Position numbers and translations under genes: made by a program. A stretch of DNA of 33,175 nt from an uncultured beta proteobacterium (GTDB lineage: Bacteria; Pseudomonadota; Gammaproteobacteria; Burkholderiales; Burkholderiaceae_C). The number at the start of each line of letters is the position of its first letter. Position 1 is the first letter of the stretch. Of this stretch, positions 13,879 to 18,637 are shown one piece after another. The notes under the pieces were generated by a model. It saw only the letters and a program-made list of their open reading frames with translations, was not told where the DNA came from and made no database searches. Where the stretch lies: contig CAIMSP010000097.1 of the NCBI GenBank assembly GCA_903844215.1, forward strand, positions 1 through 33,175, read 5' to 3'.

Positions 13879-14535
13879 ATGCAAGCTATGCGCACTTTCA
13901 AAATGGGCCGTCGCGCCGCCACCGCCATCGCCTCATTGCTGCTCGCCAGCAGCGTCTGGGCCGCGCCCGAGGCGCAGTTTCAACCGGCGTTCGAGCTGTT
14001 CATGCAGGCCAACAGCGGCAATGAATCGGCCATCGACAAATCCGTTGAGGCCTTCGCCGTCCTGCTCAAGGCCGAGCCGGGCAATCTCGTGCTGATGGCC
14101 TATGAAGGTGCGGCCACGTCGATGCGGGCCAACACCACGATGCTGCCCTGGAAGAAGATGAGCTACGCCGAAGACGGCATGGCCATGCTCGACAAGGCGC
14201 TGGCGCTGCTGAATGCGAGCCACGACGCGGTGCTGCAGCACGGCGTGCCGGCCGCGCTGGAAGTGCGCTTCGTTGCCGCCAACACCTTCCTCGCGGTGCC
14301 CGGCTTCATGAACCGGGGCGCGCGCGGCGCCAAGCTGCTGGGCGAGGTGGTGGCCAGCCCGCTGCTGAACCTGGCGTCGCTGGGTTTCCGGGGCGACGTG
14401 TGGATGAAGTCCGCCAGCGTCGCCCTCAATGACAAGCATCTGGACGAGGCGCGCAAATACCTGAATCGGGTGATCCAGGCGAACGCGCCACAGGCCGAGG
14501 CAGCGCGCGCCCAACTCGCCAAGCTGCCATCATGA
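13879..14535 (+). CDS. periplasmic helical-repeat (TPR-like) protein of an envelope cassette
   Basis: This 218-residue protein has a signal peptide (hydrophobic ATAIASLLLASSVWA, cleavage likely after VWA near residue 30). The mature part is mostly helical: FQPAFELFMQANSGNESAIDKSVEAFAVLLKAEPGN and HLDEARKYLNRVIQANAPQAEAARAQLAKL look like TPR units at both ends. I do not recognise a named family. AGGAG lies six bases before the ATG. The stop overlaps the start of the LolD-like ATPase (ATGA), so it is the first gene of a coupled transport operon and probably a periplasmic adaptor or scaffold for it. No enzymatic motif is visible. Confidence 0.75.
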   Translation: MQAMRTFKMGRRAATAIASLLLASSVWAAPEAQFQPAFELFMQANSGNESAIDKSVEAFAVLLKAEPGNLVLMAYEGAATSMRANTTMLPWKKMSYAEDGMAMLDKALALLNASHDAVLQHGVPAALEVRFVAANTFLAVPGFMNRGARGAKLLGEVVASPLLNLASLGFRGDVWMKSASVALNDKHLDEARKYLNRVIQANAPQAEAARAQLAKLPS

Positions 14536-15218
14536 ACGCCTCCGGTTCCAACGCCGTCGTCGAGCTGCACGGCGTGCACAAGACCTACCGTCTGGGCGAG
14601 CACGTCATCCCCGCGCTGCAGGGCGTGGACCTGGCCGTGCAGCGCGGCGAGCTGCTGGCGCTCACCGGCCCTTCGGGCAGCGGCAAGAGCACCATCCTGA
14701 ACCTGTGCGGCCTCATCGACACGCCCGATTCGGGTGACATTGTTTTGAGCGGCCAAAGGGTCAACGGCCTGGACGAGATCGGACGCACGCTGCTGCGCCG
14801 CGACGCGCTGGGCTTTGTGTTCCAGAACTTCAACCTGGTGCCGGTGATGACCGTGGCCGAGAACGTGGACTACCCGCTGTTCATCGCCGGTGTCCCCGCC
14901 GCAGAACGGCGCGCGCGCGTGGCGGCGCAACTCAAGGCCGTGGGTCTGCTGGAGCACGCCCAGCACCGCCCCGACGCGCTCTCCGGCGGTCAGCGCCAGC
15001 GCGTGGCGATTGCCCGTGCGCTGGTGAAGCGACCGCGCCTGGTGATCGCCGACGAACCCACGGCCAGCCTGGACTCGCACACCGCCGACCAGGTGCTGGA
15101 CCTGATGCGCGAACTCGGCCACGCCGAGGGCGCCGCCTTTGTCATTGCCACCCACGACAGCCGTTTGACCAACCGCTGCGACCGCGTGCTGGCGCTATTG
15201 GATGGGAGATTGATATGA
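14532..15218 (+). CDS. ABC transporter ATP-binding protein, LolD/MacB type
   Basis: This 228-residue ATPase has Walker A GPSGSGKST (46-54), VFQNFNLVPVMTVAENV typical of LolD/MacB ATPases, signature LSGGQRQRVAIARAL, Walker B LVIADEPTASLD and the H-loop ATHD. ATPases of this group drive FtsX-type permeases that do mechanical work on periplasmic substrates rather than pump across the membrane. It overlaps the genes on both sides by four bases (ATGA), so the stoichiometry with the permease is probably fixed by coupling. The true lolCDE genes of the organism are presumably elsewhere. Confidence 0.92.
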   Translation: MNASGSNAVVELHGVHKTYRLGEHVIPALQGVDLAVQRGELLALTGPSGSGKSTILNLCGLIDTPDSGDIVLSGQRVNGLDEIGRTLLRRDALGFVFQNFNLVPVMTVAENVDYPLFIAGVPAAERRARVAAQLKAVGLLEHAQHRPDALSGGQRQRVAIARALVKRPRLVIADEPTASLDSHTADQVLDLMRELGHAEGAAFVIATHDSRLTNRCDRVLALLDGRLI

Positions 15219-16432
15219 ACATGATGTGGCTCAAATTCGCGCTGCTCAACACGCTGCGGAATCGGCGCAGGTCACTCGTGACGGTGTCCATCGCGGCGCT
15301 GGGCACGGCGGGCATTTTGCTGGCGGGGGGCTTTGCCCTGTTCACCTACGAGGCGCTGGCCGAAGCGGCGGCGCGCGACTCCGGGCATCTGGTCATGGGC
15401 CAGCCCGAGCAGTTCAGCAAGGACGAAGAAACACCTTTGCAACATGGCCTGGAGCATGCGGACGCACTGCGCACCCAACTGCTGGCCGACCCGGCGGTGC
15501 GCGCCGTGTTGCCGCGCGTCGAGTTCAGCGGCCTGATCAGCAACGGCGACAAATCGGTGGTGATGATCGGCCTGGGCGTGGAGCCCGACAGCGAGTTTTC
15601 GGTGAAGGGGCCGTTCCTCACGATCAAGGACGGCGAGGTGTTGGGCGGCGGCGCGACGGAGCCGGAAGTGATGCTCGGTGAGGCCTTGGCACGCAACCTG
15701 AAAGCCAAGCCCGGCAGCAGCCTGACGCTGCTGGCCAGCACCACCGATGGCGCGCTCAATGCCATGGACGTGCGTGTCAAAGCGGTGTTCGCCACCGGCA
15801 CGCCGGAGATCGACAAGCGTCTGGTTTACACCGACATCGGAACCGCGCAAAAACTGCTGAACACGAAGAAGGTGTCGCGCCTGGGGATCTTTTTGGCGCG
15901 CATGGAACAGACGCTGCCTAGCCAGGCGCGCCTGGCCAGCGCCTATCCCAAACTCACGCTGCAGACCTGGGAGGACCAGGCCTTTTTCTACAAGTCGGTG
16001 CGCGACCTGTACAACCGCATCTTTGGCGCCTTAGGCATCATCATCGGCGTGATCGTGGTCTTCGTCGTGACCAATGCCATGTCCATGGCCATCATCGAGC
16101 GCACCCGCGAGATCGGCACGCTGCGCGCCCTGGGCACGCTGCCGGGCCAGTTGCTGCGCACGCTCTCGCTCGAAGGCATGGTGCTGGGGGGTGTCGGTGC
16201 GCTGGCGGGCTCGGCGATCGCGCTGGCGGTGTCGGTCTTCCTGTACATCGTGCCCGTGGAGATGCCGCCACCGCCAGGGCGCTCGGTGGGCTACCCGCTG
16301 AACATCAGCATCGACCCGCTGATGTACCTGGTGACCATCGCCAGCATGATCGCCCTGACCATGGGCGCCTGCGCCTGGGTGGCACGAAGAACGGTGCATA
16401 TGGCCGTCGTAGACGCATTGGCACATACATGA
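15215..16432 (+). CDS. FtsX-domain ABC permease, LolE/MacB type
   Basis: This 405-residue permease has one N-terminal membrane segment (about residues 20-45), a large periplasmic domain (about 50-265) and three C-terminal segments. These begin IIIGVIVVFVVTNAMSMAIIERTREIGTLRALGT, the diagnostic FtsX block. This four-helix layout with a MacB-like periplasmic domain is shared by LolC/E and MacB. With the preceding ATPase it should extract or push a lipophilic or lipoprotein cargo at the periplasmic face. Only one permease gene is present, so it would work as a homodimer, as in MacB or LolF-type systems. Two repeat elements separate it from the LolA-like gene. Confidence 0.9.
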   Translation: MNMMWLKFALLNTLRNRRRSLVTVSIAALGTAGILLAGGFALFTYEALAEAAARDSGHLVMGQPEQFSKDEETPLQHGLEHADALRTQLLADPAVRAVLPRVEFSGLISNGDKSVVMIGLGVEPDSEFSVKGPFLTIKDGEVLGGGATEPEVMLGEALARNLKAKPGSSLTLLASTTDGALNAMDVRVKAVFATGTPEIDKRLVYTDIGTAQKLLNTKKVSRLGIFLARMEQTLPSQARLASAYPKLTLQTWEDQAFFYKSVRDLYNRIFGALGIIIGVIVVFVVTNAMSMAIIERTREIGTLRALGTLPGQLLRTLSLEGMVLGGVGALAGSAIALAVSVFLYIVPVEMPPPPGRSVGYPLNISIDPLMYLVTIASMIALTMGACAWVARRTVHMAVVDALAHT

Positions 16433-17389: not shown

Positions 17390-17392
17390 AGC

Positions 17393-18637
17393 ATGCGACA
17401 CCTGACTTGGGGCGCGGTCGCCCTGTTGATCAGCGGTGCGGCGGCGGCGCAGACCGAAGGCGCGACGCCCCCCCTCAGCGGCCAGGTCCGGCTGCAATGG
17501 GACCAGCGCCAGGCGAATAGCGCCGGCCCGCTGGCTGCGGCCGACAAGCTGGCGCCCGGCACCGTGGCCCTGCCCGGCGACGGCGCCACGCTGGCGACCG
17601 AGTTGCGCAGCAGCGGCAAGGGCTGGAACGCCAGCGCCACGCTGCAGCAGCAAACCCAGCCGGGTGTGGCCACCCAGAGCCGGGCCTGGTTCAACGAACT
17701 GGTGGCCACGCACGACGCCGGCGCCTGGCAGTTCAGCGCCGGCAAAAAGATCGTGGCCTGGGATGTGGGCTACGCCTTTCGGCCCAACGATGTGGTGCAG
17801 CAGGAGACACGCCGCACGCTGGTCAGCTCGCTCGATGAAGGTCGCGCCGTGCTGATGGCCGAGCACTTTGACGCCGACACCGCCTGGTCCTGGGTCTGGG
17901 TGAACCCGACCAAGGCCCATGCTCAAACCGGCGCCCAGGAGCCGGCGTTGGCGGCGCGCGTGTACCAGCGCCAGGGCAGCGTGGACTGGCACGGCTTTGC
18001 ACGCCTGGGCGCTCATACGGGCGCCAGCGCCGGCGCAGCCCTGGCCTGGGTTGCCAGCGACGCGCTGGAGTTGCACGCCTCGGCGCGCTGGATGGAACGC
18101 GCCGACACGCTGGCGCTCCACAGCGCCGCCACCGGTCTGGTCCACACCGACCCTTGGGGCACGGCGAGCGTGGCGCATCCGGTGCAGGCGCTGATCGGCG
18201 GCACCTGGACCCATGAGAGCCAGCTCAGCGTGCTGGCCGAAGCCTGGTGGGATGGCACGGCCCTGTCCAACAGCCAGTGGAATTCCTGGGCCGCGCGCAA
18301 CGCGCTGCTGACCCGTTGGCCCACTCTGGGTGCGCCGGCCAGCGCGGCCGCCGGCAATCTGGCCTGGCAGTCGGGCGCTTTCAACGCCTCGGGCAGCCTG
18401 CGCCGCAGCAATCTGTACCTGCGGGCAAGTTGGGATATCGATGCCTGGCAGCCCACGCTGGACCTGCTGTACACCCCGGCGGACGGTGGCCGCACGCACA
18501 CCGCCGCGCTGCTGTGGAAGGGCGACCGCGTGCAGTTCCAGGGCGGCGCGCGTGTCTATGGCGGGCCGGCCAACGCGCTGCTGGCGCAGTTGCCGACGCG
18601 CCGCCAGGCCTACCTGATGGGGGTCTGGTCGTTCTAA
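17393..18637 (+). CDS. predicted outer-membrane beta-barrel protein
   Basis: This 414-residue protein has a signal peptide (ending AAAAQ near residue 20). It carries many alternating short strands such as QVRLQWDQRQ, ASATLQQQTQ and QFSAGKKIVAWDVGYAFRPNDVVQQETRR. A C-terminal strand ends in Phe (YLMGVWSF), the signal read by the BAM machinery. The AWDVGYAFRPNDVV segment is shared with porin-like proteins whose genes accompany LolA-like and FtsX-type genes, by my recollection. It is the last gene of the cassette and would be the outer-membrane end of the route. No catalytic site is visible. Confidence 0.75.
   Translation: MRHLTWGAVALLISGAAAAQTEGATPPLSGQVRLQWDQRQANSAGPLAAADKLAPGTVALPGDGATLATELRSSGKGWNASATLQQQTQPGVATQSRAWFNELVATHDAGAWQFSAGKKIVAWDVGYAFRPNDVVQQETRRTLVSSLDEGRAVLMAEHFDADTAWSWVWVNPTKAHAQTGAQEPALAARVYQRQGSVDWHGFARLGAHTGASAGAALAWVASDALELHASARWMERADTLALHSAATGLVHTDPWGTASVAHPVQALIGGTWTHESQLSVLAEAWWDGTALSNSQWNSWAARNALLTRWPTLGAPASAAAGNLAWQSGAFNASGSLRRSNLYLRASWDIDAWQPTLDLLYTPADGGRTHTAALLWKGDRVQFQGGARVYGGPANALLAQLPTRRQAYLMGVWSF

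Follow-up and report, generated by a model that had tools for sequence, protein, structure and literature searches.

A conserved five-gene cassette from an uncultured betaproteobacterium is a candidate trans-envelope export line with an ABC pump, a LolA-like carrier, and a porin-fold barrel

This report concerns a block of five genes at positions 13879 to 18637 of a 33,175-nucleotide stretch of DNA from an uncultured beta proteobacterium (GenBank assembly GCA_903844215.1, contig CAIMSP010000097.1), the whole of which is referred to here as the window. The block codes for a helical-repeat protein resembling tetratricopeptide repeat (TPR) proteins, an ATP-binding cassette (ABC) ATPase, an FtsX-family permease, a LolA-like carrier, and an outer-membrane β-barrel, and the five genes form a real conserved unit. 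We infer that they constitute a trans-envelope export line in which an ABC pump would pass an amphiphilic cargo to the LolA-like carrier and from there to a porin-fold barrel; we assign this reading a probability of roughly 58%. Few Gram-negative routes are known by which hydrophobic molecules reach the outer membrane from the inner one, and the conserved block offers a full set of parts for study, also in genetically workable vibrios.

The five open reading frames (ORFs) are real and lie where the initial annotation had placed them, all on the forward strand. The ATGA overlaps that it had described among the first three genes are present between genes 1 and 2 and between genes 2 and 3; genes 3 and 4 are separated by 195 nt and genes 4 and 5 by 3 nt. 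Gene 1 (13879 to 14535) codes for a 218-residue protein with an N-terminal signal-like stretch, recognized by eye, and predicted to be periplasmic; its homologues keep the motif PWKKM(S)YAEDG (alignment of 20). In Pfam this protein has sub-threshold TPR matches only, and the best fold matches of its model (predicted local distance difference test value, 88.2) are mostly TPR proteins, with E values of 0.011 and above. The 228-residue product of gene 2 (14532 to 15218) is an ABC ATPase (PF00005) whose best NCBIfam match is LolD (TIGR02211); the score of 220.6 bits stays below the cut-off of 307.75, so the protein is not a LolD equivalog. The LolC/E equivalog model TIGR02212 is likewise missed by the 405-residue permease encoded by gene 3 (15215 to 16432), at 99.4 bits versus a cut-off of 362.45. 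This permease contains an FtsX (PF02687) and a MacB_PCD (PF12704) domain, its best relative in the Protein Data Bank (PDB) is LolE (E value, 9.3e-12), and its hydropathy profile indicates four helices, the first and second of which are separated by about 225 residues. Its domains, four helices, and large periplasmic domain assign it to the type VII (MacB/LolCDE/FtsX) ABC transporters, and because the cassette has one permease gene, it is probably a homodimer.

Gene 4 (16628 to 17389) codes for a 253-residue protein with a signal-like N terminus, predicted to be periplasmic, which belongs to the LolA_like family (PF17131, 93.8 bits; curated cut-off, 30). PF17131 is its only match at E values of ≤1, LolA (PF03548) not being among them, and its best solved relative is the LolA superfamily protein NE2245 (PDB 3buu; E value, 1.4e-24). 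The 414-residue product of gene 5 (17393 to 18637) ends in a terminal phenylalanine (WSF) and has no Pfam match at E values of ≤1 and no NCBIfam family. Foldseek ranked AlgE first for its structural model (2.5e-11), whereas in VIA-align the BenF/OprD/Occ porins tie with AlgE; gene 5 is therefore predicted to have an OprD/AlgE-type porin fold and to reside in the outer membrane. Natural short barrels of 324 to 345 residues occur in L067 and L068 as well as in G681, G842, and G621; in these, the match to the window barrel is interrupted from about residue 232-292 to 337, the region of a predicted helical hairpin. In the public labels seen, barrels are a hypothetical protein or a β-lactamase, and permeases mostly a plain ABC permease. 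We think the β-lactamase label, which is carried by the Vibrio barrel relatives P0132, P0135, P0145, P0164, P0222, and P0234, is mistaken; it stands in contrast to the porin-fold model predicted for the window member.

Conservation of the block was assessed with a barrel profile built from 25 barrels, which identified 76 loci on genome contigs, mostly from Burkholderiales according to their titles. Of these loci, 59 contain the complete set in the same order, and 14 of the other 17 end at a contig edge; Roseateles toxinivorans DSM 16998 and Undibacterium pigrum DSM 19792 are among the carriers of the full set. The three exceptions are L062, without a detectable permease; L063, without the TPR-like gene; and L071, which lacks the TPR-like gene and has a truncated ATPase. 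The last of these has a 65-codon ATPase remnant (L071:7652-7846), open permease, carrier, and barrel genes, and upstream an ORF that by eye resembles ExbD; either the cassette is decaying there or the assembly is at fault. With start codons chosen by script, a 4-nt overlap was found between genes 1 and 2 in 49 of 57 loci and between genes 2 and 3 in 45 of 59. In a sample of 299 genomes of the window's family, its own included, the barrel is present in 36 genomes. The window-type carrier is found at 277 to 556 bits in 36 genomes as well, the next score being 101. The two sets of genomes are identical, and barrel and carrier are adjacent every time, with gaps of 6 to 642 nt; under free assortment, common descent being ignored, such identity has a probability of 2.5e-47. 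Twelve contigs chosen from the 35 other positive genomes of the family all carry the five genes. Thus, the genes are not scattered in relatives, and the barrel and the repeat protein do occur with the transporter, the two points on which the initial annotation had made its proposal of a joint system depend.

Judged by family assignments, the cassette is not the housekeeping Lol system of its host. Specifically, the genome has LolCE at C10 (457 bits), LolB at C120, and its one match to LolA (PF03548) at C45, and no LolB match was found in Pfam among the five cassette proteins. The presence of these Lol parts elsewhere argues against general lipoprotein sorting by the cassette. The suggestion of a barrel in place of LolB thus holds for the cassette but not for the genome. 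Canonical Lol comprises a heterodimeric LolCE, the receptor LolB, and lipoprotein cargo; the cassette shares with it the ABC pump family, the carrier superfamily, and, as proposed here, the inner-to-outer direction. These likenesses could also indicate a second, specialised Lol pathway that serves a small number of lipoproteins, which might reach the cell surface by way of the barrel or next to it. The closest sequence relatives of pump and permease, LolD and LolE, and the membership of the carrier in the LolA superfamily are consistent with this idea, and lipoproteins are named as possible cargo of a similar cluster in Borrelia (PMC13078400). It is nevertheless unlikely, since a LolB-like match is missing from the block, the LolD and LolCE equivalog cut-offs are clearly missed, and the PF03548 protein is the product of a different gene.

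Two sister cassettes in the same genome, like the two-component genes described below, had been overlooked in the initial annotation. The one at C55 (L093) consists of an ATPase and a permease overlapping by ATGA, a LolA_like protein, and a barrel-like protein ending in phenylalanine, and it has no TPR-like gene. The other, at C37 (L094), combines DUF1329, which scores as LolA_like (42.3; cut-off, 30), with DUF1302, MMPL, and YCF48. Homology of the window barrel to the C55 barrel is weak (hhalign probability of 28.7% over 35 columns; 23.8 bits; E value, 3.5e-5), and homology to DUF1302 was not detected (hhalign, 0.2% against the genome's own DUF1302 as a single sequence). Among 20 LolA_like places picked from the matches listed in a search of 115 genomes of the class, 12 adjoin MMPL pumps, 4 adjoin FtsX permeases (one of which, L188, is the same place as L131), and 4 adjoin neither by the profiles used, which suggests that LolA_like proteins of this class often come with a pump. 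In 8 of the 12 places with MMPL, the carrier has a barrel-profile match next to it; these matches are weak (18 to 29 bits, with a profile iterated on its own matches). Cassettes with an ABC pump, a LolA_like protein, two permease genes, and a barrel-profile match each were seen in L133, L184, L186, and L187 and are probably heterodimeric like LolCE. With ABC- and RND-driven versions in one genome, it would be possible to test what LolA-fold carriers do apart from sorting lipoproteins.

LolCDE is, by sequence, the closest relative with a solved structure, and by analogy with it the LolD/LolE-like pump of the proposed export line would mechanically extract a lipid-anchored or membrane-partitioned molecule from the inner membrane and hand it to the LolA-like carrier. 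The carrier would cross the periplasm and deliver its load to the porin-fold barrel, by which the load would enter or cross the outer membrane; these hand-over steps are modeled on LolA and on the RND-driven AmeABCD system. The TPR-like protein would act as a docking or scaffold part, and the neighboring LytTR pair might provide regulation. The cargo is most likely a lipid or other hydrophobic small molecule; the bulk lipoproteins are a less likely load, given that LolCE, LolA, and LolB are encoded elsewhere in the genome to handle them. Precedent for a hydrophobic cargo comes from AmeABCD, which serves for monoterpenes (PMC6394551). Furthermore, PP_0765/PP_0766 are reported to be needed for growth on Tween20 (PMC10866462), and TOL_3187/3188 to be raised on the n-C28 alkane (PMC6304351).

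Several observations weigh against the export line. The cassette is patchy, being confined to 36/299 genomes of the family, and no gene for a cargo was found to accompany it. From the families that recur in the flanks of the 76 loci, ten representatives matched, in Pfam, a class I tRNA synthetase (E/Q), the LytTR pair, a chemoreceptor, DUF2855, an acyltransferase (a family present in 4 loci), and DUF6622, with three giving no match; at distant loci, the flank families are the two-component pair, unrelated enzymes, or without match, and no likely cargo gene recurs. Searches did not find the TPR-like gene in L063, L071, L122, L127, and L236 or in the type-B cassettes L093 and L130 to L133, and this protein is therefore not indispensable. 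Solved OprD/AlgE-type relatives of the barrel are water-filled channels and not an obvious lipid gate. In a phmmer alignment, the loop of LolC that we take to carry the LolA-binding hook is six residues longer than that of the window permease, so that docking of the carrier may differ from that between LolC and LolA. Finally, one locus of the phylum sample (L229:6728-9674) has the barrel, kinase, and regulator, but neither a pump nor a carrier was found in the 19 kb examined.

A recurrent neighbor of the block is a LytTR two-component pair. In the window, a response regulator of 273 residues (23399 to 24220, reverse strand) and a PF06580-type histidine kinase of 350 residues (24217 to 25269, reverse strand) lie 4.8 kb downstream of the cassette and are tentative partners. 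The membrane part of the kinase falls within its first approximately 135 residues, and no large sensor domain was found in it; PDB searches did not settle whether the regulator is AlgR. Among 11 distant loci (L124, in which the barrel runs to the contig end, is left out of the count), 8 have a PF06580-type kinase immediately behind the barrel and in its orientation (L095, L096, L121, L123, L125, L126, L128, and L129); L073, L122, and L127 do not. A LytTR regulator stands behind the kinase in 6 of the 8; the contigs of L123 and L126 extend no farther than the kinase. The pair adjoins the barrel in 9 of 9 strong loci examined in the phylum sample, and at least one of its members occurs, in either orientation, in the flanks of 28 of the 76 loci. 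In midpoint-rooted trees, read by eye and with support values not considered, most flank regulators cluster with that of the window, apart from the regulator of the same genome at C37. In the seven-gene form, the pair comes immediately behind the barrel and is read in the same direction, an arrangement that the window does not have.

Within the family, a dedicated two-component system is not supported. Matches to the regulator at E values of ≤0.001, which count any response regulator, occur in 298 of 299 genomes; at least 150 genomes match the window regulator at E values of ≤2.2e-87, and at least 122 of these have no cassette. Close homologues of the regulator are thus common without the cassette. 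Among the matches listed, the best one is no more than 13 kb from the barrel in 15 of 28 cassette genomes (36 in total). The pair is a recurrent neighbor and not a proven part, although it abuts the barrel in distant lineages. A tentative extension of the export line, possible but clearly less probable than the line itself, takes the cassette as the betaproteobacterial version of an export machine of Pseudomonadota that has seven genes and monitors itself; it would be composed of pump, carrier, TPR-like dock, barrel, and a LytTR kinase lacking an outside sensor with its regulator. The kinase would read the traffic of the pump and set its expression, and the barrel would release a lipid-like product outside; the machine would be one branch of a general second outer-membrane delivery architecture, whose carrier and barrel stay the same pair while the pump is either ABC or RND. 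We regard as improbable, to about the same degree as a specialised Lol pathway, that the line is instead a sensing and detoxification module, which clears a membrane-active compound and whose short-membrane kinase reads the pump in the manner of Bce-type systems. Such coupling of ABC transporters and kinases is reported for Firmicutes (PMC3023708), the kinase holds its place beside the barrel in most distant loci and in the strong phylum loci examined, and hydropathy gave no large extracytoplasmic stretch in the four kinases looked at. Against this stand the abundance of the regulator in genomes without a cassette and the position of the window pair, away from the block and on the other strand.

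Export of a hydrophilic polymer or a drug, with the barrel as exit channel, as is AlgE for alginate, is very unlikely. AlgK provides the model for the TPR-like protein in such a scheme, and a TPR-like partner is indeed present, AlgE leads the Foldseek ranking, and MacB is among the FtsX permeases. However, the predicted likeness to AlgE exporters is one of fold, with no AlgE sequence-family match, and in VIA-align porins tie with AlgE; no synthase and no MacA-type adaptor, which MacAB-TolC has in its operon, was found among the nine window ORFs scanned (11879 to 20996); and the LolA fold of the carrier is suited to acyl chains and not to polymers. Least probable of all is retrograde transport, in which a hydrophobic nutrient would enter through the barrel and be brought inward by the carrier: the OprD/Occ relatives of the barrel are uptake channels, and the Tween20 phenotype of PP_0765/PP_0766 would fit, but FtsX/LolCDE-type pumps are exporters in known cases.

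Beyond the family, 5 of 200 genomes of the order sample match the barrel profile, its own genome included. Both other strong matches lie in a five-gene block, and of two weak ones, one adjoins an MMPL pump and one is without a recognised cassette. With a wider profile (A2), 17 of 370 genomes of the class sample match, again including the window's. Eighteen of the 19 places outside this genome were examined: 12 adjoin an FtsX permease and a LolA_like gene, 5 adjoin an MMPL pump and share just a short stretch with the barrel profile, and 1 lies at a contig edge. In the phylum sample, 16 of 398 genomes match (own included), and 11 of 14 new places were examined, namely, 9 of the 12 new strong ones and 2 weak ones. 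A LolA_like gene and a permease are in the cluster in 8 of the 9 strong loci, and all seven families, cassette plus two-component pair, in 6 of the 9. One of these six, L230, has them on one strand in permuted order (L230:2571-9371), with TPR, ATPase, permease, and carrier genes after the regulator. The ATPase was not matched in L233, nor TPR in L236. The weak loci comprise an ABC pump, a LolA_like protein, and a barrel (L237) and the same with the two-component pair (L238). The seven-gene form L228 (G1003:C128) is from another class of the phylum and has one TGA inside the barrel match. By sequence, L232 is from Vibrio, its barrel being 95% identical to one from V. hepatarius; named relatives of this barrel come from Vibrio, Aliivibrio (A. 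fischeri among them), Photobacterium, Ferrimonas, and Microbulbifer, and those of its permease from many Vibrio and from Moritella.

The initial annotation had considered the route possibly undescribed. In the open-licence literature, no paper was found on this cassette as such; similar layouts, however, are in print (PMC6394551, PMC13078400), and three vibrio genes have been linked in STRING (PMC10469919). The combination of pump, LolA-fold carrier, and barrel is thus known already, as exemplified by AmeABCD and the Borrelia cluster. AmeABCD of Castellaniella defragrans likewise clusters a LolA-superfamily protein, a barrel, and an inner-membrane pump (PMC6394551), and its type of layout is shared by the C37 cassette. 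In both of these, the pump is of the RND/MMPL type, whereas that of the window is an ABC pump, with no MMPL match in the cassette; the barrel is a DUF1302 protein, for which no link to the window barrel was detected; and a COG4447/YCF48 protein stands where the window has the TPR-like protein. The Borrelia cluster BBJ23-BBJ29 resembles the cassette in its TPR protein, ABC ATPase, homodimeric LolE/MacB-like permease, and LolA-like protein (PMC13078400). Its barrel, in contrast, has an Omp85-type domain, while the window barrel has no Omp85 sequence match (E value of ≤1) and porins as best folds; two TPR genes and no two-component pair are described among its seven genes. Its authors propose export of an unknown cargo and found the cluster only in Borrelia (PMC13078400). 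The aryl polyene proteins ApeL-ApeM-ApeN also pair a dedicated LolA-like chaperone with an inner-membrane pump and are proposed to deliver a lipid-like product into the outer membrane; they differ in having an RND pump and a LolB-like DUF3261 acceptor and in being encoded with biosynthetic genes (PMC8253772). In V. parahaemolyticus, the LytTR regulator VPA0021, the LolA-domain protein VPA0018, and the ATPase VPA0015 are STRING-linked; VPA0021 is treated as an infection-responsive regulator, and the excerpted text describes no barrel or export line (PMC10469919). Given this numbering and the 75% identity between a V. parahaemolyticus permease and the one in L232, the three genes likely belong to a vibrio form of the cassette. 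The ABC form with a porin-fold barrel, a TPR-like protein, and a LytTR pair was not found in the open-licence literature; new here are the LytTR pair that stands behind the barrel in vibrios and other distant lineages, and the presence of two sister cassettes in the window's genome.

Counts of promoter-like and terminator-like sites were 0 and 3, not above the level of shuffled sequence. Two similar G+C-rich stretches (16547 to 16590 and 18707 to 18757) flank genes 4 and 5 and contain, as seen by eye, gggtgaggg and ccctcaccc in opposite orientation; they may be a dispersed intergenic repeat. Directly upstream of the block, a row of three lipoprotein-like genes (CsgG, DUF4810, and GNA1162-like) occupies 11879 to 13625, and directly 3′ of the barrel lies a gene for a Prc-type tail-specific protease (18801 to 20996). 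Among the 76 loci, the trio adjoins the block only in L004 and partly in L005, and the protease only in these two. Farther away, the window carries a gene for a zeta-toxin-like kinase (PF06414) at 4096 to 4704 on the reverse strand.

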